Assembly: GCA_003222975.1 (NCBI GenBank) | Contig: QHXN01000021.1 | Span: 1 to 64,000 of the forward strand | Reading direction: 5' to 3' | DNA length: 64,000 nucleotides | DNA from: Acidobacteriota bacterium | GTDB taxonomy: Bacteria > Acidobacteriota > Blastocatellia > Pyrinomonadales > Pyrinomonadaceae | Shown: piece after piece, positions 38,112 to 62,828 of the stretch | Layout: the number at the start of each line of letters is the position of its first letter | How positions within the stretch are numbered: the first letter of the stretch is position 1 | Position numbers and translations under genes: made by a program | Notes under the pieces: model-generated | Database searches by the model: none | What the model was told of the DNA's origin: nothing | Seen by the model: only the letters and a program-made list of their open reading frames with translations

Positions 38112-38192
38112 CGCGGCGGGCGCTCATCCGAATCCGGCTTCCGCCGATAGAGGAGACGGCGACGCCGCCCTTCGTCCGACGGCGAGTTGCCG

Positions 38193-38756: not shown

Positions 38757-38787
38757 AGGTTTGACGAGGAGGGTTTCGATTCGACCG

Positions 38788-39828: not shown

Positions 39829-39881
39829 GTTGAAAGGCAGGTGCCTTCACTTCCGCGCTCAGCGTTGCGGTCTTCTGCGTT
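39799..39881. repeat. Long perfect inverted repeat between convergent genes
   Basis: Arms of 23 nt (39799-39821 and 39859-39881) are perfect complements around a 37-nt loop. The core reads CGCAGAAGACCGCAACGCTGA. The left arm encodes the last residues of the amidotransferase. It has no heptad periodicity and no T-tract, so it differs from both the heptad hairpins and a classical terminator. It may still end transcription for the convergent amidotransferase and modA genes. Confidence 0.8.
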
Positions 39882-39921
39882 CGCGAGGCACGCTCGCTAC
39901 TGCTCGCGGCTCTGGCTCAGG

Positions 39922-40719
39922 TTATCGCTGCCCCGGCGCTTCATACCCGAAACTCTTCAACACCGACTGCCCCTCTTCGCTCAGCACAAACTCAACGAAG
40001 TGCCGCGCCGCGTCCGGCCTCTCCGACGCGCGCACGACCGCTATGCCCTGGTCAATCGGCGCGTGCAAACGCTCGTCAACCTCGATTGTCCTCCCCTCGC
40101 CTTCTTTGACGAGCGAGCGCGGGAGGAACGCTGCGTCCGCGTTGCCGGAAGCGGCCCACTGCCTCGCCTGCGCGACTGACTGCGCGTAAACAACCTTCGG
40201 CCCTAACTGCTGCCAGACGTTCAGAGCGCGCAGCGACTCGACCGCCGCCTGCCCGTAGGGCGCGACATCAGGCTTCGCGACGGCGACCTTCGATACGCCC
40301 GCGCCCGCGAGGTCTTCGACTCGACTGATCTGTAGATTACTCCCCGGCGGGAGCCAAACGACCAGACGCCCGCGCGCGTAAACGGCCCGCGTGCCGTCGG
40401 CGAGCAGACCCTTTTCAGCCAGCGCGTCAACGTGAGAAACGTCAGCAGCCGCGTACACGTCGAAGGGCGCGCCGTTCTCGATCTGGCGCGCGAGGTCGGC
40501 GGTCGCGCCGAAGCTGCACGTGACGCGCACGCCCGTCCGCGCCGTGAAGCGACGCCCCAGCTCCTCGAAGGCGTCCGTCAGGTTCGCCGCCGCCGCGACG
40601 ACGATCTCGCCGGCGTCCTTCGCGTCGTCGCCTTTCCTCGCGCAGCCCGACTCGGCGAAGAGGGCGAGCAGCAGAATCAACGCTACAAACTTCAACAGCC
40701 GACGACGCGTGCCGCGCAT
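39922..40719 (-). CDS. modA: Molybdate ABC transporter substrate-binding protein ModA
   Basis: This extracytoplasmic molybdate/tungstate receptor is 265 aa with a hydrophobic export signal and a near-lipobox (LFAESGC) at about residues 20-26. Family motifs are VAAAANLTDAFEELG, FGATADLARQIENGAPFDVYAAAD, and VAKPDVAPYGQAAVESL. It is divergent from modB with an 83-nt shared control region. I saw no ModE-like palindrome or Moco riboswitch there. Confidence 0.93.
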   Translation of the reverse strand: MRGTRRRLLKFVALILLLALFAESGCARKGDDAKDAGEIVVAAAANLTDAFEELGRRFTARTGVRVTCSFGATADLARQIENGAPFDVYAAADVSHVDALAEKGLLADGTRAVYARGRLVVWLPPGSNLQISRVEDLAGAGVSKVAVAKPDVAPYGQAAVESLRALNVWQQLGPKVVYAQSVAQARQWAASGNADAAFLPRSLVKEGEGRTIEVDERLHAPIDQGIAVVRASERPDAARHFVEFVLSEEGQSVLKSFGYEAPGQR

Positions 40720-45966: not shown

Positions 45967-47955
45967 CTACCGCTGTTGAAAGTTATCCCCGGCAAGCGAA
46001 AACTTGAGGGTCATGCTGTGACCGTCGCGCACGACGCCGAGTGTGGCGGGCGTCGCGTCGAAGGCCGCGAGCAGGCGTCGGAGTTCGAGGCTGTCGGCAG
46101 GCGCGCCGTTCACGGTCTCGATCACGTCGCCCGCGTGCAGGCCGCTGGCGGCGGCTGGGCTGTCGGGTCGCACCGCGACGACGAGCATCCCGCCGCGCGC
46201 GTTCAGACGCGCGGCACTTCGCCCGGTCAGGCCGATGGCGCGCAGGCCGAAGGCCGGCAGCGGCGTGGAAGCTTGGAAGGGTTCAATCTCCGTGGACGGT
46301 TGGCTGGCGGTGGTCGCCGCGAAAACGCGGCCCGCGCCCGTGCGCCCCTCGGCGTCGGCGATCAGCGGTAGAACGCGGTCGAACTGATTCTCGGCTTCGC
46401 GCATGCGCTCCGCCAGACGCGCCAGCGTCGCCGCGTCCGGCGAAGTCGGGCCGCCGTTCAAAAGTCTCTGCTGCGTCTGAATCGCCCTGATTTCTCTCCG
46501 CAGAGACAGGAGGCCTTCGCGCGCGGCGCGCTCCTCGGAGAGCGCGGTGGCGAGCGCGGGGTTCTGCGCCCCCTGCAACTGCACGGACAGCTTGAGCGGC
46601 GTGGCCTCGAAGGCGCGCAGGACGGTGAAGACCACGGTCGAGCCGACGCCCAACTCGTCGAGCGTCATTGAGAGGTCTTCGACGCTGCGCACCTCTCGCG
46701 CGCCGACGCGCGCGATCACGTCGCCGGGCCGCAGTCCTGCCTGCGCCGCGGGCGTGCCGGGAGCGACCGAAGTCAGGAAGACGCCCTGCCGGTTCTGTAT
46801 GTGCGGCAGCGCCGTCTCAGGCTTCCAGCCGAGGTTGACCCACGTTCCGAGCGGGGCCTGGAACGCGGCGTCGCCGCGCACGCCGAGCCAGGGCTGGGGT
46901 GCGCTGCGGCGAAGCTTCAGCACGCGGTCGCACGCGCCGTGGATGGTCGCAACGGGGACGATCTGCGTCTCGCCGGAGCCGCTCTGCGAGACGATGCCGA
47001 CGACCTCGCCCGCCTCGTTCGCTGCAACCGCGCCCGTCCACTCCGGCGGGACGCTCGCGCTCGCGACCACGCGGAAGGGCTTGCCCGACGGCGCGCGCCT
47101 GACTTCGGTCAGACGCCCCTCCCTTTGATCTATGTTCAGAAGAATGTAGCCGTCGCCGGCCCGCGACGTTGTCTGCGCGACGGGCGCGGGGGCGGGGGCG
47201 TAGAGGTGAACGCGCTGGCCGACGTTCGGGTCTTCGGTGTCGCCGGTGTCGCCCTCCGGCTCGCCGGGGAGAATCTGCCGGACGGCTTCGAGCATGGACA
47301 GGCCCGTGGCCGCGTCCAGCCCTATGAACTTCGCCTCGACGCGCTTGCCGTCCGCGGTGACGAGCGTGAACTCCGGCTGCTCGTTCTGCGCCGCGGCGGG
47401 CGCAGCAAAAAAGCCCGGCGGCGGGTCGGGCAACGAATCAAGCTCTGCCTCTGATTGCGGCAGACGCACGACCACCGTCCGCCCGTCTTCGTAAACGTAC
47501 CCGGCGACGATGTTCGTGTGAGCGTCTCCGGTCGAGGGCAGGCTGTCCAACTGCATCGCGGGCGGGCCGCTGGTCGCGAGCCATGTGAGAAGCTTCCAGC
47601 CACTCAGACGATGTACGACCGTCACGACCTGTCGCGGCGGCATCGGCAAAGCCTTCGGCGCTGGCCGCGTAGGCGAAGCTCGCCTGCTCTGCGGCGCGGC
47701 GGGCGCGGGCGCGTTCGGGGCGGGCGTCGGAATCTGCGGCGCGGCCATTACTACGACCGTGCGGCGGACGGCGGGTTGCGCCGGCCTCGGTGCCGGTGCG
47801 TCTTGTCGTTGCTGCGCGGTGGCGGCGGGCGCGGGAGCTTCCTGCGCGAAAGCCGCGCCGCAAGGTGTGGCGATGAGCCAGACGAAGAGCGCCGCGCCCG
47901 CGGCAACGAGCCTCAGCGTCAGACACACTCTCAGCTTGTAACTTCCAGACCTCAT
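45967..47955 (-). CDS. HtrA-like envelope protein with two PDZ domains and no catalytic serine motif
   Basis: This exported 662-aa protein has a signal peptide at about 1-38 and a Pro/Ala-rich linker to ~110. A trypsin-like beta-barrel (about 115-365) comes next, followed by PDZ1 (about 370-480, GVFLTSVAPGTPAAQAGLRPG) and a coiled region. PDZ2 is at the end (about 575-655, AVRPDSPAAASGLHAGD). Where active HtrA proteases have GNSGGP, this one reads EWTGAVAANEAGEVVGIV, so no nucleophile is visible. It is probably a binding or sensing protein. It lies 7 nt after the anti-sigma gene, echoing sigma-E/RseA/MucD-type modules. Confidence 0.8.
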   Translation of the reverse strand: MRSGSYKLRVCLTLRLVAAGAALFVWLIATPCGAAFAQEAPAPAATAQQRQDAPAPRPAQPAVRRTVVVMAAPQIPTPAPNAPAPAAPQSRRASPTRPAPKALPMPPRQVVTVVHRLSGWKLLTWLATSGPPAMQLDSLPSTGDAHTNIVAGYVYEDGRTVVVRLPQSEAELDSLPDPPPGFFAAPAAAQNEQPEFTLVTADGKRVEAKFIGLDAATGLSMLEAVRQILPGEPEGDTGDTEDPNVGQRVHLYAPAPAPVAQTTSRAGDGYILLNIDQREGRLTEVRRAPSGKPFRVVASASVPPEWTGAVAANEAGEVVGIVSQSGSGETQIVPVATIHGACDRVLKLRRSAPQPWLGVRGDAAFQAPLGTWVNLGWKPETALPHIQNRQGVFLTSVAPGTPAAQAGLRPGDVIARVGAREVRSVEDLSMTLDELGVGSTVVFTVLRAFEATPLKLSVQLQGAQNPALATALSEERAAREGLLSLRREIRAIQTQQRLLNGGPTSPDAATLARLAERMREAENQFDRVLPLIADAEGRTGAGRVFAATTASQPSTEIEPFQASTPLPAFGLRAIGLTGRSAARLNARGGMLVVAVRPDSPAAASGLHAGDVIETVNGAPADSLELRRLLAAFDATPATLGVVRDGHSMTLKFSLAGDNFQQR

Positions 47956-47962
47956 CAGCCGA

Positions 47963-48754
47963 CTACCAGACCCCTTCCTTGTCCGTCACCGGCGCGCGGC
48001 GACTCGTCCCCTCACGCGCGATTAGCTCCTGCGAGCCGAAGCTGACCGCGCGCATCGGCACGACGCGCGTCACGCCGCGCCCGTCCTTCAGCACGACGCG
48101 CAGCGGCTCGGCGGTCGTGCCGAGCGAAATCCTCATCGTCGGACTCTGTTCGATGACCCGCGCGGAACTGAGAGCGGCGGTCAAAAAATTCTTCGCCGGC
48201 GCTTCGCTCGACGGCTCTCCCAACGCGGCTTCCTTCGCGCGCGGCGGAGAAATTGTCCGCGTCTTCACTTTGCCCCGCCGACTCTGAGCACCGGACAGCT
48301 CTGAGCCGCTGGCTCTCGTCTCGCCCGCGTCAGTCACCTGCGCGGCTATACTTTCCCGCCCCGACCGCGCCGCGCCCCCCGCGCTCCGGGCTATCACTGC
48401 CTGGCGCTGACCGGCGTCCGGCCTCCTTTGCTGCTCCTGCCTGAAGTAGAGCGACGCCGAGACGACGAGGAAGCAGGCGGCTGCGGCCAGCGCGGCGAAG
48501 CCATAGACGGGACGGAGCGGGTTGCGTCTTTCTTTGGCGCGCGACGCGTCCATGCGAGCGCGCAGACGGAACTCGAAGTCCGCGGGCGCTGCGACCATCT
48601 CAAGACTACGGACGAGGCGGCGCAGCGAGGCGCGCTCCTGCTCCAGATGGCGGCAGGCTTCGCACGCGTTGACGTGCGCGCGCGCTTCGAGGCCCAGGCG
48701 CCCGACGCCGGCCAGTTCCTCGATCTCTTCACGGTAAGTTTTGCAGTCTGCCAT
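47963..48754 (-). CDS. Zinc-finger anti-sigma factor, membrane-anchored
   Basis: The start at 48754 (MADCKTYREEIEELAG) gives 263 aa. The N-terminal zinc-binding anti-sigma motif is HVNACEAC (His27, Cys31, Cys34). One transmembrane helix (about 83-104) separates the cytoplasmic part from a ~155-residue outer domain. It lies 11 nt after the ECF sigma gene and should bind that sigma factor until an envelope signal releases it. Confidence 0.87.
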   Translation of the reverse strand: MADCKTYREEIEELAGVGRLGLEARAHVNACEACRHLEQERASLRRLVRSLEMVAAPADFEFRLRARMDASRAKERRNPLRPVYGFAALAAAACFLVVSASLYFRQEQQRRPDAGQRQAVIARSAGGAARSGRESIAAQVTDAGETRASGSELSGAQSRRGKVKTRTISPPRAKEAALGEPSSEAPAKNFLTAALSSARVIEQSPTMRISLGTTAEPLRVVLKDGRGVTRVVPMRAVSFGSQELIAREGTSRRAPVTDKEGVW

Positions 48755-48765
48755 AAAACACTTCC

Positions 48766-49338
48766 TTACAGGTACGCCTGCAACTTGTCGCGCAGGAACG
48801 AGCGCGCGCGGTTGATGCGCGACTTCACCGTGCCCTCGTTCATCCGCAGGATGCTGGCGATCTCTTCGTAGCTGCGCTCCTCCACGTCCCGGAGCACCAG
48901 CGGGGCGCGGTACTTTTCCGGCAGCGTCGCAATCGCCCGCGCGACCGCCGCGCGTCTCTCGTCCTCGACGAACGTCGCGTCCTGGAGCGGCCCCGCGTCC
49001 GGCAGCTCCAGCTCGCACGTGTCTGACGGCGACTCGCGCTCCTTGAAGAAGCTCGTGAGCGAGACCAGGCGGCGGCGCTTGCGGCGGCGCAGCTCCGAGA
49101 TGGCGAGGTTCGTTGCGATGCGGTAGATGTAGGTCGAGAACGCGTAGCTCGTCTGGTAGCGCTCCGCCGCCGCGTAAACCCGCATGAAGGTCTCCTGCGC
49201 GAGATCAACCGCCAGGTCGTAGTCGCCCGTCATGCGATAGACGTAGTTCGTGATCTGATTCCGGTAGCGTCGCACAAGCTCCGCGAAGGCCACCTCGTCG
49301 CCCGCCTTCGTCTCCTCAAGGAGCCGGTGGTCTGTCAT
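48766..49338 (-). CDS. ECF-type RNA polymerase sigma factor (RpoE-like)
   Basis: Region 2 is visible as FAELVRRYRNQITNYVYRMT and DLAVDLAQETFMRVYAAAERY. Region 4 is LPEKYRAPLVLRDVEERSYE with a helix-turn-helix ending EGTVKSRINRARSFLRDKL. I use the ATG at 49338 (MTDHRLLEE), which has a GAGGAG about 12 nt upstream. Starts at 49425 or 49473 would add residues without clear homology. With the anti-sigma and HtrA-like genes downstream it forms an envelope-response module. Confidence 0.9.
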   Translation of the reverse strand: MTDHRLLEETKAGDEVAFAELVRRYRNQITNYVYRMTGDYDLAVDLAQETFMRVYAAAERYQTSYAFSTYIYRIATNLAISELRRRKRRRLVSLTSFFKERESPSDTCELELPDAGPLQDATFVEDERRAAVARAIATLPEKYRAPLVLRDVEERSYEEIASILRMNEGTVKSRINRARSFLRDKLQAYL

Positions 49339-49789
49339 CGCCCCGAACGTCTCCTCTTCCCGCACGGACGCCCCCGCCCCCGCGACGGAGAAGAGTAGTT
49401 CGTTCGTGGAGGAAATGGCGCTCATCCAGGAAAGGCGGGCTTCTTCCGGGGCTTTACAGACCCCGGAACTCAAGTTATCTACGAAGCGTCAACCCCGGCT
49501 TTCAAACTCGCCGGGCCGGACGTGCCGAAATTATACACTCTTCCCCGGCTTTATCCGCTCTGTGTTCACGCCCGGACTGGTCGCCGGGTTCCAAAAAAAC
49601 AGAACCGCGAGCGGCTTCGGTCTTCGCGCTCGTAGTGGGCGTGTGCCCTCGCTCCCGGCAAAATAGATACTTTTCAACTCGCCGCGCAGTGTTATAATGC
49701 CCACTCAATTCGCAAATCGTCTCGTCTTTCGCCGCCTTCGTGCGGGCGCAAATTGCTCCTGATAGAATCTTCTCTAGCATTCAGAAGTT
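49339..49789. other. Divergent control region between sigma gene and cNMP/Fe-S gene
   Basis: No gene is called here, although the sigma-factor frame stays open to 49473. A - strand TATAAT (complement of 49530-49535) may serve the sigma operon, without a clear -35. A + strand promoter is at 49671-49698. The region is less G+C-rich than its neighbours. Confidence 0.5.
49671..49698 (+). promoter_or_regulatory. Promoter candidate for the redox cluster
   Basis: TTTTCA (49671-49676, four of six) and TATAAT (49693-49698, perfect) are 16 nt apart. Start is expected near 49705, about 85 nt before the ATG at 49790. Confidence 0.6.
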
Positions 49790-52264
49790 ATGCCGAAAGA
49801 GATAAAGAAGCACCAGACCGTGCTCGAAGCCATCCGCAAGGTGGACATCATCTCGGAGCTTCTCGAAAAGCACAACGGCCACTTCGAGCACGAGCTAGAC
49901 CTCGAAGTCATCGCCTACGGTCGCAACTACAACGGCAAGAAGGTCGGCCCCTACGTCCACCTGCTCGAATACGAGGCGGGCGAGGAGGTCATCCGCGAGG
50001 GCGACTGGGGCGGCAACACCTTCTACGTCACCGTGGAGGGTAAGCTCGACGTGTTCGTCCGCGACCGCGAGGCGGGCGAGAGCCGCAAGGTGGGCGAGAT
50101 ACCGCCCGGCGTGAGCTTCGGCGAGATGTCCATCCTCGCGGGCGTGCCGCGCAACGCGACCATCAGCGTGCCGCCCGGCTCGAAGGCCCGCGTGCTCGAA
50201 GTCACGCGGCCCGCGCTCCGGCTGCTGAGAAAGCTGCCGAAGTTCGGGCAGATGCTCGACGCCAACTACCGCAAGCACGGCCTGAGCCGCACGCTCATCG
50301 AGGTGCGGCAGGCGACGGGCGAGGCCTTCAGCCAAGAGCTGACCGACAAGCTCGGCAGGTCGGCGCGCTTCACCGTCTACGCCAAGCACCACGTCCTCTT
50401 CCGCGAGGGCGAACTCATTGACCGCGTCATCTTCTTACGTAACGGCTGGGTCAGGCGCGTGCGCGGCCTCGGCTACGGCGCGGTGATGGGCGATCTGCTC
50501 ATCGAAGGACTCTCGGACGACGTGGGCGTGGACTTCCTCGGCGCGGGCAACTGCCTCGGACTCGAAGGCGCGGAGCGCGACGCGCGCTGGGCCTACACGG
50601 CGGTCGTCCTCCAGCGCACCGAAGTGCTGGAAGTCGCCATGCCGCCGCTGCGCTCCGACCGCTCCCTGCGCGACACGGTCGTCCGAACCTTCTCCGACTT
50701 CTCGCTCGCGGACGACGACGTGCTCGTCTCTTCGGGCCTCGACAAAGCGGTCATCTCCGCGACCGAGCGCGAGATAGCGACAGGCATTGTGGACGGCACG
50801 AACCTGCTCGTGATGGACATGGACAAGTGCGTGCGCTGCGGCAACTGCTCAATGGCCTGCCATCAGGTGCACGGCCAGTCGCGCCTCCTCCGTCGCGGCA
50901 TACACATCGAGCGCGTCAAGAACTACGGCGGCGTTTCGAGCGAGCAGATTCTCGTCCCCTCGGTCTGTATGCACTGTCAAGACCCGGAGTGCCTGACGGG
51001 CTGCCCCACGGGAGCCATCGGTCGCTTCGAAAACGGGCAGATAGACATTGACCCGAAGACCTGCATCGGCTGCGGCGACTGCGCGACCCAGTGCCCATAT
51101 AACGCGATCACGATGATCCCGCGCAAGCCGGAGGTGGCGAAACCCCTGACGTTGGCCCAGAAGATGAAGGGGATGCTGAGCATGGCCCCGGCCACGCCGC
51201 CGCAGCCCGTCACGGCCACCGACAACCTGCTCGCCACGAAGTGCAACCTCTGCCAGGGAACTTCGCTCAACCCGCCCGACGCGAAGACGCAAAGCTACTC
51301 CTGCCAGGAGAACTGCCCGACGGGCGCGCTCGTGCGCGTCAACCCGCGCGAGTATTTCACCGAGGTCAACACGCGACTCGGCCTCGTCTTCCGCGACCAG
51401 AACCAGGCCATCGGTCGCAACATACACAAGCGCGACCCCCTCGCACGCCTCTGGCACGCCCTCGGCCTCGTGCTCGCCGTCGGCGTCACCGCCGGCATCA
51501 TCTGGGGACTCGAACGCTTCGGCATTGACCAGCGGCTCGGCGGCACGTTTCTGACCGTCCGCTGGATCACGGGTCTCATCGGCCTCGGCGGCATCGCCGC
51601 GGTGATGACCTACCCCGTGCGCAAGCAGGTCTATCGCCAACGCGCGGGGGCGCTGCGCTACTGGATGCTGATGCACGTCTATCTCGGCACGGTCGCGGGG
51701 CTGTCGCTCCTGCTCCACGGCGGCAAGACGACGGGGGGCTTGCTCACCTCGCTTTTGATGATCTCGTTCGACGCAGTCATCGTCACGGGGCTGTTCGGCA
51801 TCATTGTCTATCTCGTCGCGCCGCGCATCATGACGAGCATCGAGGGCGAGCCGCTGCTCGTCGAAGACCTGAGAGCGCGCCGGGAGGAGCTGCGCGAAAC
51901 GCTCGCCGACATCGGTCAGCGCAGCAACGAACGCTTGCGCGAGTTCATACGCAAAAAGGTTCGCGGCAAAGTCTTCGCCTTCCGCTACCTGCTCCGGCAG
52001 TACCTCAGGCGCGAGGAGCTGACGGAGCTTCTGGCCGCCGCGCGCGAGGAGTACGAGGCGGAGGCGCGCGGCCTCGACCCGGAGTCGCGCCAGCTATTGC
52101 TCGAAGCCATCGAGGCGACGGTCACACTCCGCCGCGTGGACTCCCTGATCTACCTGCATCAGCTTTTAAAACTCTGGCTCGCGCCGCACGTCGTCGCGTC
52201 CTCGCTGATGCTGGCGCTGATGACCGTCCACGTCGTCCAGGTCATCTTCTTCGCCGCCCGCTGA
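49790..52264 (+). CDS. Fusion of two cNMP-binding domains, a four-cluster ferredoxin and a membrane cytochrome b-like domain
   Basis: The product is 824 aa. Residues 50-145 form a cyclic-nucleotide-binding domain (FGEMSILAGVPRNATI). A second, more divergent one lies at about 190-300. Residues 345-515 hold four Cys groups of DmsB/HybA type (CVRCGNCSMAC, CMHCQDPECLTGC, CIGCGDCATQC, and CNLC with CQENC). The C-terminal part has about five membrane helices with two His pairs spaced 14 residues apart (His629/His643, and a pair in the last helix), as in diheme cytochrome b. It probably passes electrons between cytoplasm and membrane under nucleotide control. It heads a three-gene + strand group; I know no named family of this exact layout. 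Confidence 0.85.
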   Translation: MPKEIKKHQTVLEAIRKVDIISELLEKHNGHFEHELDLEVIAYGRNYNGKKVGPYVHLLEYEAGEEVIREGDWGGNTFYVTVEGKLDVFVRDREAGESRKVGEIPPGVSFGEMSILAGVPRNATISVPPGSKARVLEVTRPALRLLRKLPKFGQMLDANYRKHGLSRTLIEVRQATGEAFSQELTDKLGRSARFTVYAKHHVLFREGELIDRVIFLRNGWVRRVRGLGYGAVMGDLLIEGLSDDVGVDFLGAGNCLGLEGAERDARWAYTAVVLQRTEVLEVAMPPLRSDRSLRDTVVRTFSDFSLADDDVLVSSGLDKAVISATEREIATGIVDGTNLLVMDMDKCVRCGNCSMACHQVHGQSRLLRRGIHIERVKNYGGVSSEQILVPSVCMHCQDPECLTGCPTGAIGRFENGQIDIDPKTCIGCGDCATQCPYNAITMIPRKPEVAKPLTLAQKMKGMLSMAPATPPQPVTATDNLLATKCNLCQGTSLNPPDAKTQSYSCQENCPTGALVRVNPREYFTEVNTRLGLVFRDQNQAIGRNIHKRDPLARLWHALGLVLAVGVTAGIIWGLERFGIDQRLGGTFLTVRWITGLIGLGGIAAVMTYPVRKQVYRQRAGALRYWMLMHVYLGTVAGLSLLLHGGKTTGGLLTSLLMISFDAVIVTGLFGIIVYLVAPRIMTSIEGEPLLVEDLRARREELRETLADIGQRSNERLREFIRKKVRGKVFAFRYLLRQYLRREELTELLAAAREEYEAEARGLDPESRQLLLEAIEATVTLRRVDSLIYLHQLLKLWLAPHVVASSLMLALMTVHVVQVIFFAAR

Positions 52265-52269
52265 AATGA

Positions 52270-52382
52270 GAGGGGAAAAGGGTAAAAGGGGAAATGGGTA
52301 AAAGGGATAAGACGGCTGGCTCTCACGGGGGCAGTGCTTTTCTGTTCCCCTCTTCCCTATTTCCACTTTTACCCTTTTCCCC
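52270..52382. repeat. Hairpin element with 8-nt units, GGGTAAAA family
   Basis: The left arm (52270-52309) has GGGGAAAA/GGGTAAAA/GGGGAAAT/GGGTAAAA/GGGATAAG. The right arm (about 52350-52382) has TTCCCCTC/TTCCCTAT/TTCCACTT/TTACCCTT/TTCCCCC. The period is 8 nt, while the architecture equals the heptad elements. It starts right after the 49790 gene and ends 15 nt before the next ATG. Confidence 0.85.
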
Positions 52383-52397
52383 CGTCACGGATTAGGT

Positions 52398-53894
52398 ATG
52401 CAGACAGAGGCCAGTAAATTCATCATCAACCGCGAGGACTTGAACGTTGACCCGGTGACGCTCGTCACGGACGGTCTGAAGATCGGTCGCGCGCCGAGCT
52501 GCGAGCTGGTCTTGAATCACCCGATGGTCTCGCGCCTGCACGCCGGCATCAACGACGCCGACGGTCGCTACTACCTCTATAACTTCAGCCATTCGAGCGG
52601 CACGACGCTGAACGGTCGCGTCGTCGCCATCGAGTCGGCGGAGGTCTTGGCCGACGGCGACGTGGTGCAGATCGGCCCTTACTTCCTGCGCATCTCGCGC
52701 GCGGGCGACGCGCTGAGCATTGGCGTCACGCTCGAAGTGGCGATGACCGTGGCCGATTCGGAGAGCCGCGGCGAGACGCCGCAGAGCCAGGGCCAGCAGG
52801 CCCCACAGCCGAGCAAGGAGTCAACGGAGGTGGCCGCCGCGCTCGGCGTCTTCTGGGAGAAGCGCAAGCGCGAGGCCGGCAAGATGCAGCACGTCTCGCC
52901 GCTCCGCCCGCAGAAGCCCCAGCGCGTGCTCGGCAAGGCGCGCTTCAACTGGACGCCGACGCGCGATCTCGTCCGACCGTGGCCTTTCTCCGTCTTCGTC
53001 TGGGGCTTCGCCGCGGTCGCCGTCCTGTCAATCGTCGCCGCGGTCGTCTATGCACAGACCTACTCGCCCGCGCCCATCTCCTCGGCCCACGCGCGCGGCA
53101 AGTTCACTTCGCAGCCGCCCGTCGCCCGTCAGGCCAACGCGACCAACTGCACGGCCTGCCACACGCTGACGGTGAGCATGGACAAGAACTGCGCCTCATG
53201 CCACGAGACGCCGGCCTTCCGGCCCACCATCACGGACGCGCACAAGGCCGCAGGGCTAGGCTGCACCGCCTGCCACGTCGAGCACCAGGGCACGGAGTAC
53301 CGCCCGTCGGTCGCCAGCCTCCAGACCTGCACGAACTGCCACAACGACGCGAACAAGAAAACGTACAACGGCCACGGCGTCCACACGCCGCACCCGCAGA
53401 CGGGCTTCGGCTACCCTGTGGTTAACGGCAAGTGGGTCTGGACGGGGCTGCCGGACGCGGAGAAGCAGCAGAAGACGCCTGAGTTGCAGAGGATAATTGA
53501 TAACGTCAGGAGCCAGCTCGTCCCCCCCAACTCCGCGCGCGACCCCGATGACCTTCACCGCAGCGCGGAGTTCCACGCGCTGCACATACACCGCGTGAAG
53601 GCCGTCGGCGGCCTGCCGGCTAACCGCGACGGCGAGCTGTCCTGCTCCTCCTGCCACAAGTTTTTCAGCCCCGTCAACGTTGACCGCGAGACGCCGCGCG
53701 CGACCTGCGGGACGTGCCACAACGGCGACCGCGGCGGCAAGTTTGAGAACGTCCTCGCGGCGGACAAACCCAACTGCATCTCCTGTCACGTGCAGCATCT
53801 TGAGGCCCGGCGCGAGTGGGGGCGCGCGCTCTTGAACGACCTGTCGGCGGCGTCGCCGAATTTGCAGCTCGGCGACGCCCCGCCGCAAAAGTGA
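52398..53894 (+). CDS. FHA domain fused to a heptahaem cytochrome c
   Basis: The product is 498 aa. Residues 20-105 are an FHA phosphothreonine-binding domain (GR at 30-31, SRLH at 45-48, NG at 72-73). After a linker a single transmembrane helix (194-220) leads to an outer domain with seven CXXCH haem sites: CTACH, CASCH, CTACH, CTNCH, CSSCH, CGTCH, CISCH. The topology implies cytoplasmic FHA and haems outside, so phosphorylation inside could be tied to electron flow outside. It has a weak ribosome site next to the 8-nt hairpin. I know no described family with this fusion. Confidence 0.88.
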   Translation: MQTEASKFIINREDLNVDPVTLVTDGLKIGRAPSCELVLNHPMVSRLHAGINDADGRYYLYNFSHSSGTTLNGRVVAIESAEVLADGDVVQIGPYFLRISRAGDALSIGVTLEVAMTVADSESRGETPQSQGQQAPQPSKESTEVAAALGVFWEKRKREAGKMQHVSPLRPQKPQRVLGKARFNWTPTRDLVRPWPFSVFVWGFAAVAVLSIVAAVVYAQTYSPAPISSAHARGKFTSQPPVARQANATNCTACHTLTVSMDKNCASCHETPAFRPTITDAHKAAGLGCTACHVEHQGTEYRPSVASLQTCTNCHNDANKKTYNGHGVHTPHPQTGFGYPVVNGKWVWTGLPDAEKQQKTPELQRIIDNVRSQLVPPNSARDPDDLHRSAEFHALHIHRVKAVGGLPANRDGELSCSSCHKFFSPVNVDRETPRATCGTCHNGDRGGKFENVLAADKPNCISCHVQHLEARREWGRALLNDLSAASPNLQLGDAPPQK

Positions 53895-53941
53895 GTCCCA
53901 GCGTCTGCCGGCGCGGATAACTTCTATTTCACGCGAAGACC

Positions 53942-55492
53942 ATGAAGAAATCACAGCTATTCGTCATCCTCGCGCTCTGGTCGCTGCTGATGCCGATCAA
54001 CCTGGCGACGAAAGACCCGAGCAAGAGCTTCTTCGGCGGCCTGCCCTGGTGGGGCTGGGGCGGCATCGGCCTCCTCCTCATCGTCACCGCCGTCGCGTTC
54101 GCGGTGAACGACTCGCGGCGCGCGCGCCTCCTGCTCGAAGAGCCTCTGCCGCCGAAGCCCGAAGAGGACGGGGGGCGCATCAAGCTCACTAAAGAGCAGT
54201 TGGAGAAGTACGACCCCGACGGGCCGAACTACCCGCACCCGGTCGTCATCACGGAGCGCTGCATCGGCTGCCACGCCTGCGTTGATGCTTGTCCCCACGA
54301 CGTGCTCGCCATCGTCAACGGCGTCTCCACGCCCGTTGCCCGCGACCAGTGCATGGAGGATACCTCGTGCCAGGTCGAGTGCCCCGTCAACCCGAAGGCG
54401 TGCATCGTCGTCAACACGGACAAGAAGATTCCGCCGCGCAAAGTCCCGAACCGCGATGCGAAATTCATGACGAACGTCCCCGGCTGCTTCATCATCGGCG
54501 ACGTGTCGGGTACGCCGCTCATCAAGAACGCGACGAACGAGGGCACCGACTGCGTCAAGTTCATCCACGAGGAGCTTCGCAACGGCACGCCGCCCGAACC
54601 CAAATCAAACGTCGAGGTCGCCATCATCGGCATCGGCCCGGCAGGGCTGTCCGCCGCCATCACCGCGCAGCAGCTCGGCCTCTCCTACGTCGGCATCGAG
54701 CAGGACAAGGTGCTCGCCACAATCGAGGCTTACCCCGCGAACAAGTACGTCTTCTTCAAGCCGGAGACGATGGAAGCCCGCGGCGGCATCAAGCCTGAAG
54801 GATTGGGGCAGCAGCGCGAGTCAATACTCGAAGAGTGGACACGCGCGATGCGCGAGACGGGCGTCTCGATTAACGAGTTGGAGAGCTGCAAGTCTGTGAA
54901 GAAGGCGGAGGACGGCGACTACTTCGTCGTCCAGACCGAGCAGGGCGCGGAGAAGAAGAAGGTGACGTACAACGCTCGTCGCGTCGTGCTCGCCCTCGGC
55001 AACCGCGGCACGCCGATGAAGCTGAGGGTCGCGGGCGAGGAGATGAAGGTCACGCGCGACGGGAAGACTTCCGACAAGGTGATGTACAAACTGACCGACC
55101 CCGAAGATTACCGCCGGAAGCGCATCATCGTCGTCGGCGCGGGCAACTCGGCCATCGAGGCGGCGGTTGATCTGGTGGCAACGCGCCAGGGCGACCAGAT
55201 AACTTTCCGCTCGGACTCGGAGATCAACGACGTGACGCTCGTCATACGTAGTGACATGAAGAACGACCTCAAGTTCGGCAACAAGCTACAGGTTTACGAC
55301 TGCATAGACGAGGGCAGGATTAAGGTCTTCTTCGGCACGGGCATCAAGGAGATCAAGGACGACGAGGTCGTTCTGATGAACGCGCGCACCGAGGAGGTCA
55401 AGACCACCGTGCCGAACGATTACATCTTCGCCATGATCGGCGGCGACCGCCCGACCAAGTTCCTCGAAGGCATCGGCATCAAGATCGGCTGA
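53942..55492 (+). CDS. Membrane-anchored ferredoxin-flavoprotein (thioredoxin-reductase-like)
   Basis: The product is 516 aa. Two N-terminal hydrophobic helices (about 5-22, 36-56) precede a dicluster ferredoxin: CIGCHACVDACP (Cys107/110/113/117), then Cys137, Cys143, Cys147 and Cys154. The rest is a two-dinucleotide-domain flavoprotein with FAD loop IGIGPAGLSAAI (about 229-240) and NAD(P) loop IVVGAGNSAIEAA (about 395-407). The redox-active Cys pair of thioredoxin reductase is not visible. It probably moves electrons between NAD(P)H and Fe-S partners at the membrane, feeding the cytochromes. A strong terminator follows. Confidence 0.87.
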   Translation: MKKSQLFVILALWSLLMPINLATKDPSKSFFGGLPWWGWGGIGLLLIVTAVAFAVNDSRRARLLLEEPLPPKPEEDGGRIKLTKEQLEKYDPDGPNYPHPVVITERCIGCHACVDACPHDVLAIVNGVSTPVARDQCMEDTSCQVECPVNPKACIVVNTDKKIPPRKVPNRDAKFMTNVPGCFIIGDVSGTPLIKNATNEGTDCVKFIHEELRNGTPPEPKSNVEVAIIGIGPAGLSAAITAQQLGLSYVGIEQDKVLATIEAYPANKYVFFKPETMEARGGIKPEGLGQQRESILEEWTRAMRETGVSINELESCKSVKKAEDGDYFVVQTEQGAEKKKVTYNARRVVLALGNRGTPMKLRVAGEEMKVTRDGKTSDKVMYKLTDPEDYRRKRIIVVGAGNSAIEAAVDLVATRQGDQITFRSDSEINDVTLVIRSDMKNDLKFGNKLQVYDCIDEGRIKVFFGTGIKEIKDDEVVLMNARTEEVKTTVPNDYIFAMIGGDRPTKFLEGIGIKIG

Positions 55493-56327: not shown

Positions 56328-56924
56328 TCACTTGCCCGTGTGGCACTTGGCGCAGTCGTTCGTGGAAGGGGCGTTGATTCCCTTCCGCGCCTCGAGGGCC
56401 TGGTCGTGGCAACTGTTGCAGTTGCGGTGAAAGGCCGCGTCGTTCGTCAGCGGGGTCGGGTCTGTGTCGCCTTCGAAAGTGACCTGCGGGATTTCGGCCA
56501 GGAGCTTTGGCTTGTCGCCCTCCTGCGCGTGGCAGGCGCGGCAGTTCTGCACGTCGGGCGTCTTCGGGTCTTTGGCCGTCTCGGCTGTGAGCGTGACGGT
56601 GCGGTCTGCCGGGTAGGCCGTCTTATCGGGCGGATGCTTCGCGGCCTCGGAGGCGGGCTGCTCCGTGTGGTGGCACTCGATGCAGGCGATTGGCTTCGTG
56701 CCGTCAATGCTGTAGTTCTTCGTCGCGTGATTGACGTGGTTGAAGGTGACGGCGAGCGCTTTGGCCTTGTCCTTCTTGGGGTCGGTCGAGAGTTTGTAAA
56801 CGTCCTGCGGCGTCTTGCCGTCGGCGATCAGTGCACCCGCGCCGGACTTGAGGGCGCGGGAGTTACAGCCGATGACGACGCAGAGGAGGCACGCGAGCGT
56901 GGCCGATACGATTAAGAGTTTCAT
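56328..56924 (-). CDS. Tetrahaem cytochrome c lipoprotein (cytochrome c3-like)
   Basis: The product is 198 aa with a lipoprotein signal (lipobox VIGC at about 17-20) and four CXXCH sites: CIECH, CRACH, CNSCH, CAKCH. Additional His residues (FNHVNHAT, CHH) could be sixth ligands, giving bis-His low-potential haems as in the class III family. It is probably an outer-face electron carrier for the larger cytochromes upstream. Confidence 0.9.
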   Translation of the reverse strand: MKLLIVSATLACLLCVVIGCNSRALKSGAGALIADGKTPQDVYKLSTDPKKDKAKALAVTFNHVNHATKNYSIDGTKPIACIECHHTEQPASEAAKHPPDKTAYPADRTVTLTAETAKDPKTPDVQNCRACHAQEGDKPKLLAEIPQVTFEGDTDPTPLTNDAAFHRNCNSCHDQALEARKGINAPSTNDCAKCHTGK

Positions 56925-57126: not shown

Positions 57127-58089
57127 TCAGAAGCGGAAGGTCTGCCCCGTGTGGCAGCGCTTGCAGGCCGAGAAGTCGTCGCCGCCGAAGGCGCGCCGGT
57201 TGTTGTGACAGCTCATGCACGCCTGCGCGCGCCCCGCGCCGAAGTGCTGCGTGGGCCGGGGGGCTGTGACCTGCTGCGTGCGCGGGACGCCGGAGCGAAC
57301 CTGGTGGCAGTCGTTGCATGAAAGGCCCTGGCGCGGGCCGTGGCCGGCGTGTGTGAAGTTGACGCGGTAGGCCAGCGAGCCTGTGGACGCGCGCCCGTAG
57401 CCGCCCTGCGCGTGGCAGAGGCCGCAGGAGCCGATGTTGCGCCCGCCCGACTGCGCGTTCGGCGTGTGGCACTGGTAGCAGTTGTTGTGCGCGGCGAGGC
57501 CGACGGGAATCGAAACCGCGACGCCGCGCCGCATCGGCTGGTGACAGGCGGAACAACCCTGCTGGGGTTGCGCCTCGCCGCTCATGTGCTGCAAGTGGTC
57601 GAAGCGCATGCCGAAGTTCTTCAGGCCGGGGAAGGCTTTGAGCGGCGGGTTGTTCGACTCGACGTTCGTGTGGCAGTTAAGGCACAGCGCGCTGCCTGAA
57701 GTAGTGAACTGTGCGGTGTGACAGTCCGTGCAGGCCTTGTGGCCGGGCAGACGTGGCTCAGCCGAGTTGTCCTCGCGGCGGTGGCAAGAGTCGCACGCGA
57801 GCGAGGCGTGCTGCGGGATGGAGTGCGAGAAGTTCGAGCCTTCGCCTTGCGCCGCGGCGTCGAGCGGCGCGGCGAGTCGTGCGGCGCGCGCCGATGCCGT
57901 TGAAGCGGGCGCGCGCCTGCCGGCGGCGAACGCCAGGAGGAAGCCTGTTGCGACGAGCAGCAGAATGACACGCGGGAGCAGGCGCGGGCCGAACGACGCG
58001 CGCGTCGTGCGCGAGTGTGACGCGTCGCGCGTCGGGCGCGTGTGTTCGGGCGCTCTGATTTGTTCGTCCGTGTCCGGCAGGTCTGTCAT
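57127..58089 (-). CDS. Nonahaem cytochrome c, membrane-anchored
   Basis: The product is 320 aa. After a ~38-residue N-terminal cytoplasmic stretch, one hydrophobic helix (about 40-57) anchors an outer domain with nine CXXCH sites: CDSCH, CTDCH, CLNCH, CSACH, CYQCH, CGLCH, CNDCH, CMSCH, CKRCH. The protein ends just past the last site. It starts 3 nt after the preceding nonahaem gene stop, so the two are surely co-transcribed. A 202-nt gap without a visible gene separates it from the tetrahaem gene. Confidence 0.92.
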   Translation of the reverse strand: MTDLPDTDEQIRAPEHTRPTRDASHSRTTRASFGPRLLPRVILLLVATGFLLAFAAGRRAPASTASARAARLAAPLDAAAQGEGSNFSHSIPQHASLACDSCHRREDNSAEPRLPGHKACTDCHTAQFTTSGSALCLNCHTNVESNNPPLKAFPGLKNFGMRFDHLQHMSGEAQPQQGCSACHQPMRRGVAVSIPVGLAAHNNCYQCHTPNAQSGGRNIGSCGLCHAQGGYGRASTGSLAYRVNFTHAGHGPRQGLSCNDCHQVRSGVPRTQQVTAPRPTQHFGAGRAQACMSCHNNRRAFGGDDFSACKRCHTGQTFRF

Positions 58090-58092
58090 GTC

Positions 58093-59283
58093 TTACTTAG
58101 AGACGGCGTCGAGGTGCGACTTAGGCACCTGCGCCTTGCCGTAATTGATGTGGCACTTCGTGCACTGGAAAGTCGGGTCGGCCTCGCGCTTGCCGACCTC
58201 CTCGTTGAGAATCTTCTTCGGCCTCGGGTTGATGTGGCAGCCGGAGCCGCCGCACGTCAGTACGGGAACCTTGATGGTCTTCTCGTCGAGCAGGCTGATG
58301 GCCGTGATGTTGATGTGGCAACTCGTGCAGCCGCGCGACTGGTGTTTGTCTTCCTCGTGCGAGAAGGTGGCCGAGTCGCGCCGCAGCAGCTTGCGGATGA
58401 TGAACGGGTCTGTGATTCCTGCCTTTGCAGCGGTCTGCGCGTCGGCATCTTTGCCGGGCGGCGCGGGTGTCTTCCCCTGCGGCAGAAGCCTGTGGCAGCC
58501 CGCGCAGTCGGAGGCGAGCGGCTTTTCGCCGCCGTCCTGCCAGTGACAGTTGAAGCACGACTCGTGGCCCGAAGGGGTCGTCTTGAACGTGCCGTCCTCC
58601 AGCACTAGCGCGCCCGCGGCAGGCGTCGCCGCGGGCTTGTTCTGCTGGTGGTAAGTCTGGTGACAGATCGAGCAACTGTCAACGGGCTTCTTCTCGCCCT
58701 GCGGCTCGAACGACGCGCGGACGAGAGGGATGCCCTCCGCCTTGAATGAAGGCATGAAGCGGGCCATCACGTCCTGGTGTCGGTCGTGCGGGAAATTCAA
58801 CGAGAACTCCGACTGAACGCCCTTCGCCTTCTCCGACTTCGAGAAAGCACCCGCGGGGTTCTCGAACGGGAAGCGACCGCCCGTGCGCGGCGAGACGACC
58901 GTGTGGCAGACCGCGCAGATCGCGGGGCGCGCGCCTCTGAAGAACTGCTGCCGGTGGCAGTTGATGCAGGAGGCGTGTTCCGGGTAGTCGGTGATGTCCG
59001 GGAAGGCCGCTTCATGGTCGCGCGCCTGAGTCCAGTTCGCCGACGGAGTCTTGTGGCAGGAGTCGCAAGTCTCCTGCTGGTGCTGCGCGACGCGGTGCGA
59101 GAACTTCGTGTAATCAACGGCGGGGCGCGTGGCAACGGGCGCAGGGCGGCGAGCGCGGCCACGGCGCTGCTGCGGCGCGGGCGCGGCCTTCGCGGAGGCG
59201 TTCGAGGTGACGAAGCGCGGACAGACGAACGCCGCCGAGGCCAGCAGGAGCAGAGTCGCGAGCGTCAGTGTTCGGTGCTTCAT
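58093..59283 (-). CDS. Nonahaem cytochrome c with one CX4CH site
   Basis: The product is 396 aa with an N-terminal signal (about 1-30, LATLLLLASAAFVC). There are eight CXXCH sites (CDSCH, CINCH, CAVCH, CSICH, CFNCH, CAGCH, CTSCH, CTKCH) and one wider site CGGSGCH, a CX4CH motif known in some multihaem cytochromes. It is the first cytochrome gene of the - strand group. Partner proteins are the downstream nonahaem and tetrahaem cytochromes and CcsA/ResB upstream for haem attachment. Confidence 0.92.
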   Translation of the reverse strand: MKHRTLTLATLLLLASAAFVCPRFVTSNASAKAAPAPQQRRGRARRPAPVATRPAVDYTKFSHRVAQHQQETCDSCHKTPSANWTQARDHEAAFPDITDYPEHASCINCHRQQFFRGARPAICAVCHTVVSPRTGGRFPFENPAGAFSKSEKAKGVQSEFSLNFPHDRHQDVMARFMPSFKAEGIPLVRASFEPQGEKKPVDSCSICHQTYHQQNKPAATPAAGALVLEDGTFKTTPSGHESCFNCHWQDGGEKPLASDCAGCHRLLPQGKTPAPPGKDADAQTAAKAGITDPFIIRKLLRRDSATFSHEEDKHQSRGCTSCHINITAISLLDEKTIKVPVLTCGGSGCHINPRPKKILNEEVGKREADPTFQCTKCHINYGKAQVPKSHLDAVSK

Positions 59284-59459: not shown

Positions 59460-60245
59460 CTAATTACCCGACCCAGCGGCCTGCTGCCTGGGCGCGCTCA
59501 GCTCGACGAGGACGGAGTGTATCTGTTTCGGGATGGGCGGGAGCGCCGTCACCTGACAGTCCCAGAGGATGCCGCCCGTGCCGAGAGGCATCAGGTTGGA
59601 GATGTAGTAGCCGCCGGGCTTGATGCCCGTGAAATACGCCGCGCCCTTCTCGTCGGTCATCACGGACGAGACCCTGCCGGCCTTCTGCGCCGCCTGTTCG
59701 AGCCAGGCCCGCTTGCGCTTGAAGTATTCGGTGCGGACGTTCTTCAGAGGGAAGTTGACCGTGATCCACTTGAGGGCGAGCTTGTCGTTGTGGTATTTGC
59801 GCTGCCCCTCTTCGTAAGCGCGCTTGAACTCCGGCACGGTCTTGACGGCGTCCGCATACTCCGACTCGTACTCCGGGCAGTAGAGCGTGTCGCAGTCGTG
59901 CTTCGCCAGCCACTCGCGTAGCTGCGGACTCGCGCCTTGCAGGAACTCTTCGCGCCTGGGTGCGGCGGAGAATGCGTCGGCGTCGGACGCGCGCGCGCTG
60001 CGTTGGAGAAGGTAGAAGCGTTTGCGCTGGAGCGGCTTTCCGTCCGGTCCTGTGACCGTGATGCGGATGCCGGTCGTCACGTTGGGCGCGGAAGGCTGGG
60101 CGGGCGCTGCGCCCTGCGGCGTGTTCACCTTGCACGCGCCGGCTGCGGGCGCGGCGGTCTGAGCGCTGGCCGCGTACCCTCCGAGCAGGAGGGCGACGAT
60201 TGCCAGCGCGCTTGGGAGCGAAAACACAAGCCTGTCGGGTCTCAT
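59460..60245 (-). CDS. Secreted hypothetical protein with carboxypeptidase-regulatory-like fold
   Basis: The product is 261 aa with a signal peptide at about 1-29. A beta-strand pattern (GIRITVTGPDGKPLQRKRFYL and GAAYFTGIKPGGYYISNL) resembles a carboxypeptidase-regulatory/transthyretin domain interrupted by a helical, Lys/Glu-rich middle. There are a few Cys (for example HDCDTLYCPEYESEY) but no haem site. It lies between the cytochromes and the TPR protein and is probably part of the same envelope assembly. No family is recognised. Confidence 0.7.
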   Translation of the reverse strand: MRPDRLVFSLPSALAIVALLLGGYAASAQTAAPAAGACKVNTPQGAAPAQPSAPNVTTGIRITVTGPDGKPLQRKRFYLLQRSARASDADAFSAAPRREEFLQGASPQLREWLAKHDCDTLYCPEYESEYADAVKTVPEFKRAYEEGQRKYHNDKLALKWITVNFPLKNVRTEYFKRKRAWLEQAAQKAGRVSSVMTDEKGAAYFTGIKPGGYYISNLMPLGTGGILWDCQVTALPPIPKQIHSVLVELSAPRQQAAGSGN

Positions 60246-61089: not shown

Positions 61090-61168
61090 CGTAAACCGTG
61101 AACCGTAAACCGTGACAAGAGAAATCTGTTTTTACACGTCGCGGTTTACGGTTCACGGTTTACGGCTT
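61090..61168. repeat. Heptad hairpin element, GTAAACC/GTGAACC family (copy 4)
   Basis: The left arm (61090-61119) is GTAAACCGTGAACCGTAAACCGTGAC-type; the right arm (61137-61168) is GTCGCGGTTTACGGTTCACGGTTTACGG-type. The loop is about 17 nt. Its loop and inner arms are the reverse complement of copy 1 (3091-3196) with few changes. It lies between ccsA and the TPR gene and ends about 9 nt before the TPR start on the - strand. Confidence 0.9.
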
Positions 61169-62828
61169 ATGCGTATGAGTGCAGGCCCGGCAGCAGGTAA
61201 CTCACCCCCAGGTAGGTGAAGACGATCAGGAGGAAGGCGACGATGGCGAAGTAGGCAGACGCCCGCCCCGTCCACCCGCGCGATATCCTGACGTGGAGGA
61301 AGCCGCCGTAGGTCAACCACGCCACGAAAGCGCCCGTCTCTTTGGAGTCCCATCCCCAGTAGCGGCCCCACGACTCGTTGGCCCAGATCGCGCCCGTCAT
61401 CAGCAGCAGGGCGAGTCCGGCGAACACGACCCCGCCCGTCTTGTACATCAGAGAGTCTATCTTCTCCTTCGGCGGCAGGGCGAAGCGCAAGCGTTCGGTC
61501 TTGAAGCCGAAGATGATGACGAAGAGCGTGCCCGCGAAGGCGGTGATGAGCGCGGCCAGCTCGACGGGGTTGGCGTTGAGGCTCAGGAACAGCTCGTCCT
61601 GCCGCTGGCCGGCGAACCTTGCCGCCTCGCCTTCGAGCTTGGCCGGGTCAATCGTCGCCACCTGTGCCGGCGGGACTCCGTCCTGCTGGGCCATCCAGAC
61701 GCCGAACCTGTAGAACTGCTGCGTGTTGATGCAGGCCGTCTCAGCCGGGCGACCGTCGGCGCAGACGGCGACGTGCTTGAGCGTCTTGACCTGCCACACG
61801 AGCAGGACGATGGCGAGCGCCTGCGCGACGAGCGCCGCCTTGATGAGATACCAGCCCCAACGTTGATACGACTTAACATTCGGAGCCTTCTGCTCGTCCG
61901 AGAAGGCATAAGTGCCGAAGAGGACGACTACGCCGAGCAGGAGCAGGCCCGCGATGATGAGCAGCGGGCCGACGAAGGGGATGTCCGCGCGCAGGGGCAC
62001 GGGCATGTGCGGCGGAAGAAACGTCGCGGCGGCGTAAGTCCCCGTCGTGAGGATGGGGAATGTTCCCAGCGGGCCGCCAATCGTCGAGATGATCGCAATC
62101 GCGAAGACGCTCGACCAGAAGGCCATCGCCTCGACCTTCACGCCGTCCTTCAAGAGATAGACCACGGCGGTGGCGAAGCACACCAGCGCGATGCCGTAGG
62201 TGAGCGACGCGATGCCGACGTGGATGGGCCGCCAGTAGGAGTCGAGCACGGGCTGGAGGCCGAGTATGTCATCGCCGATGAAGCGCGCGAGTATGAGAAT
62301 CAGCGCGGCCAGCGGCAGGGAGACCGCGCCGAGGAAGCGGAAGTTCTTGCGGTGCGCGATGAGCAGCGTCGTCATGCCTGCGCCGAAGGCGAAGGCGAGC
62401 GACAGGTCGTAGAGGTTCGCGAACGGGATGTTGCGGAAGACCCAGGGCCACTCGGCCACGGGCTTGCCCTGCTGGAGCCAGATCGAAACGTCGTGCTCGC
62501 GGTAGGCGACCCAGCGCGTGAGCCAGCTCGCGAGGTTCATCAGCACTCCCACGGTCGCGCACGCCAGGCCGACGCGCTCGAACAGGCGCGAGGGCGCGTA
62601 GAGGTTCAGCAGGTAGAACGTGGCGGCGACGAGGTAGGCCGCGAGCGCGAGCATCATCAGCGCCCCGTCCGTGCTGAAGTGCTCCGGCCCGACCTTGATG
62701 CGGAGCAGCGTCAGCGCGCCCGCGCCCGTGAACGCAATCGCGGCGGGCAGGTAAGACGAAAGGCCCGCGCCCTGCAAACTGATCTCCGGCGTGCCCATGA
62801 CCGCGGGCTGCTTCATAACTTCGCTCAT
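61167..62828 (-). CDS. ccsA: Cytochrome c biogenesis protein CcsA (ResC), System II
   Basis: This polytopic membrane protein exports and presents haem for attachment to CXXCH motifs together with ResB. The tryptophan-rich WWD-type motif reads WGRYWGWDSKETGAFVAW, and conserved His residues flank it (for example in PIHVGIASLTYG). It has 553 aa and at least ten helices; the extra N-terminal membrane part and a ~90-residue outer loop (about 355-450) make it longer than minimal CcsA. It overlaps the resB stop by 4 nt. Confidence 0.92.
   Translation of the reverse strand: MSEVMKQPAVMGTPEISLQGAGLSSYLPAAIAFTGAGALTLLRIKVGPEHFSTDGALMMLALAAYLVAATFYLLNLYAPSRLFERVGLACATVGVLMNLASWLTRWVAYREHDVSIWLQQGKPVAEWPWVFRNIPFANLYDLSLAFAFGAGMTTLLIAHRKNFRFLGAVSLPLAALILILARFIGDDILGLQPVLDSYWRPIHVGIASLTYGIALVCFATAVVYLLKDGVKVEAMAFWSSVFAIAIISTIGGPLGTFPILTTGTYAAATFLPPHMPVPLRADIPFVGPLLIIAGLLLLGVVVLFGTYAFSDEQKAPNVKSYQRWGWYLIKAALVAQALAIVLLVWQVKTLKHVAVCADGRPAETACINTQQFYRFGVWMAQQDGVPPAQVATIDPAKLEGEAARFAGQRQDELFLSLNANPVELAALITAFAGTLFVIIFGFKTERLRFALPPKEKIDSLMYKTGGVVFAGLALLLMTGAIWANESWGRYWGWDSKETGAFVAWLTYGGFLHVRISRGWTGRASAYFAIVAFLLIVFTYLGVSYLLPGLHSYA

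Follow-up and report, generated by a model that had tools for sequence, protein, structure and literature searches.

Signalling domains joined to redox proteins at an acidobacterial locus: a candidate inner-membrane module of an envelope-spanning electron conduit

Introduction

What kind of system is encoded by three adjacent genes that join signalling domains directly to electron carriers? The genes lie side by side on the + strand of a 64-kb stretch of Acidobacteriota DNA, here called the window (the whole stretch analysed), and their open reading frames encode proteins that we call P1, P2 and P3. An earlier note, made from the letters of the window, had placed the trio at 49790-55492, where it is indeed found, and had read it as an electron chain from NAD(P)H to outside cytochromes gated by a second messenger and by phosphorylation. 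We put the probability at about 55% that the three proteins together make up the inner-membrane part of a PCC4-like porin-cytochrome conduit that spans the envelope, with electrons taking the path proposed below.

PCC3 and PCC4 are hypothesised porin-cytochrome clusters (He et al. 2017, PMC5566968). Their inner-membrane protein has about 300 amino acids (aa), five transmembrane (TM) helices, SGXXG on TM4, and WX3HX13H on both TM3 and TM5 (PMC5566968). In subgroup II of PCC4, an Fe-S (pfam13247) gene lies upstream of the gene for this protein (PMC5566968).

Results

P1 (49790..52264, 824 aa) is a fusion of two cyclic nucleotide (cNMP) folds, four [4Fe-4S] sites and a predicted cytochrome b. Pfam finds in it two cNMP_binding stretches, Fer4_7, Fer4_11 and others; matches named here for P1, P2 and P3 lie above curated cut-offs unless a weaker score is stated. 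The iron-sulphur (FeS) region (residues 340-515, 50807..51334) is DsrO/NrfC/DmsB-like. Its 16 clustered Cys (347/350/353/357, 393/396/401/405, 425/428/431/435 and 485/488/505/509) make four [4Fe-4S] sites and are all invariant among 18 homologues, which align with P1 over the full length at 46-85% identity. Fer4_11 (PF13247) scores 34.7 bits against a cut-off of 26.2 and lies N-terminal to the cytochrome b in the same protein.

The cytochrome b (residues 550-824, 51437..52261) would cross the membrane five times. In an alignment covering all phyla, its membrane domain has exactly four invariant His, H629 and H643 on one helix and H800 and H814 on another. Each pair stands in a WX3HX13H motif (W625/H629/H643 and W796/H800/H814), and TGLFG is the third motif. 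Four invariant His so placed are the pattern of what is probably a two-haem cytochrome b. The hydropathy segments and the H629-H643 helix argue for the TM assignment, and an AlphaFold2 (AF2) model with a pLDDT of 81 has long helices at all five expected places.

This cytochrome b carries every sequence feature described for the PCC3/PCC4 inner-membrane protein. The signature is present in the window, in 18/18 homologues from the window's class, in 20/20 rows of the wider alignment and in 6/7 proteins of a sister system described below; the first residue of the TM4 motif SGxxG is T or S among homologues and T in the window. The earlier note's statement that no named system has this composition is therefore only partly supported, although FHA, cyclic nucleotide and ferredoxin have no occurrence in the main text of PMC5566968. 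A full-text search of open-licence papers likewise found no description of the cNMP/FHA/multihaem combination.

P2 (52398..53894, 498 aa) consists of a forkhead-associated (FHA) domain (residues 20-100, 52455..52697), a single TM helix at residues 199-217 and seven CxxCH haem sites (residues 251-464, 53148..53789), all C-terminal to that helix; Pfam matches FHA and Cytochrome_C7/c3. P3 (53942..55492, 516 aa) has a TM segment at its hydrophobic N-terminus, a dicluster ferredoxin with eight Cys and a flavoprotein part free of CxxC. Pfam matches Fer4 and Pyr_redox_3/2 (Pyr_redox_3 at 120 bits), and the FAD and NAD(P) GxGxxG/A motifs are found in the corresponding fold (Pfam; Foldseek, 7a76). A CxxCH at residue 107 was considered as a haem site and rejected, being part of the ferredoxin motif. 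The architecture read earlier for P2 and P3, and for the Fe-S sites and bis-His helices of P1, thus holds.

Since P1 has no export signal evident on inspection of its sequence, and since in P2 the haems all come after the only TM helix, hydropathy and charge fit a topology in which the c haems face outward and the cNMP, FeS, FHA, ferredoxin and flavin parts lie in the cytoplasm. In relatives in which P2 and P3 are fused, a second TM helix would bring the ferredoxin and flavoprotein back to the cytoplasm; where P3 is separate, it has an extra N-terminal hydrophobic helix.

The order of segments within the flavoprotein of P3 is unusual. BLASTP against P7, its homologue in Sphingobium, aligns residues 236-515 with 1-278, yet residues 169-209 with 287-327. 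By BLASTP and profiles, P3 residues 168-209 (54443..54568) are N-terminal here and C-terminal in the canonical flavoprotein. Profiles from type C proteins (defined below) place this 'GD' segment N-terminal of the catalytic part in every class P3 homologue examined (window, 37 bits, 3e-11). The canonical order, with 'GD' at the C-terminus, is kept in P7, in a same-genome paralogue (L150) and in a neighbour at L046. Confidence in the AF2 model is high across most of the 'GD' segment and catalytic part; the closest matches to the model in the Protein Data Bank (PDB) are Bdr/YpdA (7a76, E 7e-23), with thioredoxin reductase (TrxR)-type ferredoxin-NADP+ reductases (FNRs) lower (FNR1 8c3m, 1e-15). 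The P3 flavoprotein is thus predicted to be a circular permutant of the YpdA/TrxR fold.

P1 occurs in 38/60 near relatives and in 70/147 genomes sampled from the window's class; a phylum sample of 297 genomes gave 18 matches, 17 from the class and one distant form. P2, separate or fused to P3, stands beside P1 in 20/20 loci read, and together with the full-length homologues this argues that the arrangement of P1 is not due to chance. At L050, L052 and L054-L057, P2 and P3 are fused into a single chain of about 1060-1180 aa, in the order FHA-TM-c7-TM-ferredoxin-flavoprotein. On plasmid pMSHV of Sphingobium herbicidovorans, the six modules are cut differently, as [flavoprotein-cNMP2-FeS4] (P7), [cyt b] (P8) and [FHA-TM-c10] (P9), with pairwise homology to the window at 8e-21 (P3/P7), 2e-16 (P1/P8) and 2e-11 (P2/P9). 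We call this arrangement type C, and [cNMP2-FeS4][cyt b][TM-c10] type D. A genome scan found at least 565 relatives. The best 80 of these come from Acidobacteriota, Nitrospirota, Desulfobacterota, and alpha- and gammaproteobacteria, and nearly all keep the type C three-gene order. Of the gene set that the earlier note proposed to look for in other phyla, the six modules thus recur under redrawn gene borders, across five or more bacterial phyla or classes. Gene fusion in relatives, module re-partitioning in other phyla and conserved order support the view that P1, P2 and P3 would act together.

Type D, which lacks flavoprotein and FHA, is found in the window's own class (L066, L067). A cytochrome b tree gathers the sequences of the class form into one clade, and likewise those of the C form, of the D form and of the sister group; L064, a divergent truncated sequence, sits on a long branch. 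From these comparisons the constant core is the FeS sites, cytochrome b, c haems and cNMP folds, while FHA and flavoprotein come and go. The type C decahaem protein of Acidobacteriota (L063:9660-11984, P0011) has two FHA domains, one at each end, and its haems between two TM helices. In several Sphingobium strains the whole type C operon sits on large plasmids (L059) and can thus pass from strain to strain. Plasmid matches in E. coli, Salmonella and Sinorhizobium proved to be ordinary FeS subunits, the whole variant being found in the plasmid search only in Sphingobium, and 32 pattern matches on viral contigs included no relative.

Are these proteins, then, a stand-alone trio? This possibility was rejected, as porin, LVIVD and cytochrome partners were found. 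At the type C loci L074, L080, L086 and L088, an adjoining protein of 607-740 aa is a porin candidate; it has no Pfam match, and its barrel is suggested by a signal-like start and an aromatic C-terminus. Homologues in the window's genome lie on contigs C23 (47%, E 5e-156) and C33; on both contigs the next gene downstream encodes a relative of the LVIVD-repeat multihaem proteins with 9-10 CxxCH. These two outer-membrane modules, porin-like gene first and 9-10-haem LVIVD relative second, span L189:5560-14566 and L190:7783-13642. An HbpS-like protein is encoded beside the first of them.

In other genomes the two parts meet. The porin-like/LVIVD pair is contiguous with the P1 cluster in genomes G005, G037 and G044 and the outer-membrane module with the cluster at L050, L052/L192 and L058/L191; at Nitrospira L080 it is the porin. 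Of the 147 class genomes, 68 have P1 together with the LVIVD protein, 2 have only P1, 5 have only the LVIVD protein and 72 lack both (Fisher 4e-33). The corresponding counts for P1 and the porin are 67/3/5/72 (Fisher 1e-31). An unrelated, patchily distributed solute-binding gene of the window (39922-40719), used as a control, is independent of P1 (25/45/22/55, p 0.38). Within genus g9, ten sampled genomes have both P1 and the outer module, and the others listed for the genus have neither. Read together, these data suggest that the cluster is a variant of the hypothesised envelope-spanning conduit and not an isolated trio.

The likeness to PCC4 extends beyond the cytochrome b with its two WX3HX13H motifs and S/TGxxG. 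An Fe-S (pfam13247) part accompanies the inner-membrane protein, there are several periplasmic multihaem cytochromes, and in several relatives a porin-like gene lies in the cluster. In contrast to PCC4, the Fe-S part and the inner-membrane protein are fused in P1, the haem counts are 4, 9, 8 and 7 instead of 4, 5 and 10, an LVIVD multihaem protein is present, and the window has no porin next to the trio. We do not claim PCC4 membership, because haem counts differ and the porin is not adjacent, and because the likeness is one of described features, not of sequences.

A sister system is found in other Acidobacteriota. Clusters at L165, L167, L168, L169, L171 and L183 have a homologous cytochrome b, a ferredoxin-permuted flavoprotein and cytochromes with 16-51 CxxCH, and have neither cNMP nor FHA domains. 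Across many other Acidobacteriota this flavoprotein is encoded as a separate protein, in repeated cases next to the homologous cytochrome b (E 1e-7 to 1e-18) and to such cytochromes. With the same cytochrome b signature and this gene content, the sister loci resemble PCC3 and are possibly PCC3-like. PCC3 itself, with giant extracellular and periplasmic multihaem cytochromes, a porin and an inner-membrane protein, has no FeS, cNMP or FHA part named and is not the window's system.

Other known proteins resemble single parts. The FeS region of P1 matches the four-cluster ferredoxin subunits NrfC, DmsB and DsrO over the cluster-binding stretch, far below their curated cut-offs; in P1, however, it is fused to cNMP folds and cytochrome b, and no catalytic molybdenum or hydrogenase partner was seen in the cluster. 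By sequence and by fold, the P3 flavoprotein comes closest to Bdr/YpdA and the TrxR-type FNRs, from which it differs in its circular permutation, its membrane anchor and its fused ferredoxin. NADPH oxidases and ferric reductases (FRD) share two HX13H pairs that would pass cytoplasmic NAD(P)H-flavin electrons outward. They use another flavoprotein family, whereas the window has an FeS wire between flavin and haem and a relay to c haems, and PF01794 is matched by only 7/20 cytochrome b rows, weakly.

Whether the signalling domains still work as such can be judged in part from their pockets. cNMP fold 1 (residues about 59-145, 49964..50224) has the phosphate-binding cassette G-E ... R-x-A-T as FGEMSILAGVPRNAT. 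This or close forms are kept in most members of the window's class, as is the cassette of pocket 1 in most type A/B proteins, and the cassette pattern is matched twice in 66/80 type C loci and once in 14/80. cNMP fold 2 (residues about 190-285, 50357..50644) has lost the cassette in the window and its class. The earlier note's two cNMP-binding domains are thus two folds, of which the first keeps a conserved pocket. Because pocket 1 is conserved, cNMP gating of electron flow is plausible, and we regard it as evenly poised. The genome has four class III cyclases and 12 FHA domains.

The phospho-Thr pocket of the P2 FHA domain is complete (GR, SRLH, GT, NG, judged by R, S-x-x-H and N-G), and it is intact in most same-class relatives. 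It is degenerate at L047-L049 and L058, loci without P3; degraded pocket and missing P3 coincide at all four, perhaps through one or two events only, which suggests a function of FHA on the flavoprotein side. In the distant homologues of type C the pocket Ser is gone from nearly every protein, and type D loci have no FHA. For these two reasons the case for phosphorylation control of the conduit is weak. Degenerate pockets had been named earlier as a ground against gating; cNMP pocket 1 and the window's FHA pocket are intact and cNMP pocket 2 is lost.

These pockets bear on two alternatives. The cNMP and FHA folds may be structural scaffolds only, in a constitutive conduit. The loss of cNMP pocket 2 in the class and of the FHA Ser in nearly all type C proteins would agree with this, but the strong conservation of the pocket 1 cassette in types A/B and of the type C cassettes would not, and we judge it improbable. 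Or the proteins may be a sensor rather than a conduit, with the redox state of the haems and FeS sites read inside through the cNMP and FHA domains to set signalling. Two kinds of signalling domain are built in, the window's FHA pocket is intact, and type C Acidobacteriota have a second FHA. We nevertheless give a sensor a slim chance: the proteins have no kinase, cyclase or phosphatase fused to them as an output enzyme, cNMP folds usually serve for input, a complete outer-membrane module co-occurs, and the family can dispense with FHA and flavoprotein but not with FeS sites, cytochrome b and haems.

Beyond the trio lie further cytochrome genes, all on the - strand. A tetrahaem lipoprotein-like c-type cytochrome (56328..56924, 4 CxxCH), a nonahaem (57127..58089, 9 CxxCH) and an octahaem cytochrome (58093..59283, 8 CxxCH), and a 261-aa protein with a signal-like start and no Pfam match (59460..60245) are conserved neighbours; they are followed by the cytochrome c maturation genes of CcsA/ResC-like (61167-62828) and ResB-like (62825-63919) type. 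The three multihaem cytochromes and the ResB/CcsA-type genes belong to the P1-P3 neighbourhood, so the interval given earlier holds the trio but stops short of them. Upstream, at 45967-49473, lie genes for an extracytoplasmic function (ECF) sigma factor, an anti-sigma-like protein and a PDZ protein, in an order conserved at L039-L042; they are possible regulators of the cluster. Farther upstream (34249-40719) are two NuoL/M-like proton-pumping subunits and then an ABC transporter solute-binding protein.

Discussion

Modules, ligand residues, fusions, re-partitioning and co-occurrence are read directly from the DNA; from these we infer topology, complex formation, cofactor loading and the electron path. 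P3 would take electrons from NAD(P)H to FAD and on to its fused ferredoxin, which would pass them to the four [4Fe-4S] sites of P1. The two b haems of P1 would carry them across the membrane, most likely with H629 and H800 on the cytoplasmic side and H643 and H814 on the outer side. From there they would move to the seven haems of P2 and on through the tetra-, nona- and octahaem cytochromes of the periplasm, ending at the porin/LVIVD multihaem pair of the outer membrane. A cyclic nucleotide on the first cNMP fold, which is N-terminal to the FeS wire, would probably open or close electron entry into the membrane part. FHA may serve to hold P2 at a phosphorylated partner or, more simply, at the flavoprotein side. 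The gated chain of the earlier note keeps its joined parts, fitting topology and co-occurring outer module, but phosphorylation gating is its weak element. We advance only tentatively the full proposal, a wire allosterically switched by cyclic nucleotide that gates NAD(P)H electrons to extracellular cytochromes in at least five phyla or classes.

Several observations weigh against an inner-membrane module of the PCC4 kind with this path. The cytochrome b model had 0 fold neighbours in the PDB at E<=0.001 by Foldseek, so its fold class is drawn from motifs and from weak Ni_hydr_CYTB matches under the Pfam cut-off; a PDB profile search with the alignment gave coiled-coil noise only. The residue after the cassette Arg in cNMP fold 1 is Asn, neither the usual cAMP nor the usual cGMP choice. 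The outer-membrane module of the window's genome is encoded away from the cluster, on different contigs, and the Fisher tests ignore the relatedness of genomes. The flavoprotein is not beside P1 and P2 at L047, L048, L049, L058 and L064 or at type D loci, so NAD(P)H borne by P3 is not the sole donor in the family.

Direction is a separate question. The same conduit could run inward, from an outside donor (Fe(II), Mn(II) or another cell) through the haems and cytochrome b to the quinone pool, or through the FeS sites and flavoprotein to NAD(P)+. The PCC3/PCC4 model, with clusters found in iron oxidisers, is drawn from the outside to the quinone pool (PMC5566968). A published listing gives a 'Forkhead-associated protein' cluster with 10 haem motifs in 27/87 iron-oxidising Gallionellaceae genomes, which agrees with inward flow. 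Flow to NAD(P)+, however, would have to overcome both an unfavourable redox gradient and the membrane potential. Bdr and FNR, the closest flavoproteins with a solved structure, are NADPH-linked, and the hosts include sphingomonads and Acidobacteriota, which to our knowledge are not known metal oxidisers. We consider the inward direction unlikely. Outward flow is the direction that we think probable, since NAD(P)H readily donates electrons and the membrane potential would not oppose their movement outward.

What is new here is the building of cNMP, FHA and flavoprotein modules into a putative envelope conduit, and a circularly permuted flavoprotein common to it and the sister system. Should the cNMP pocket indeed gate flow, electron transfer through the envelope would be under a post-translational switch, and we know of no precedent for this. 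For the passage of electrons across the inner membrane to PCC3/PCC4-type conduits, the published model assumes a quinone-active cytochrome b and leaves its partners unspecified. Here a cytochrome b of this kind shares one chain with a four-cluster FeS wire and cNMP folds and is genetically tied to an NAD(P)H flavoprotein, so that donor, direction and control become directly testable, cultured sphingomonads included.

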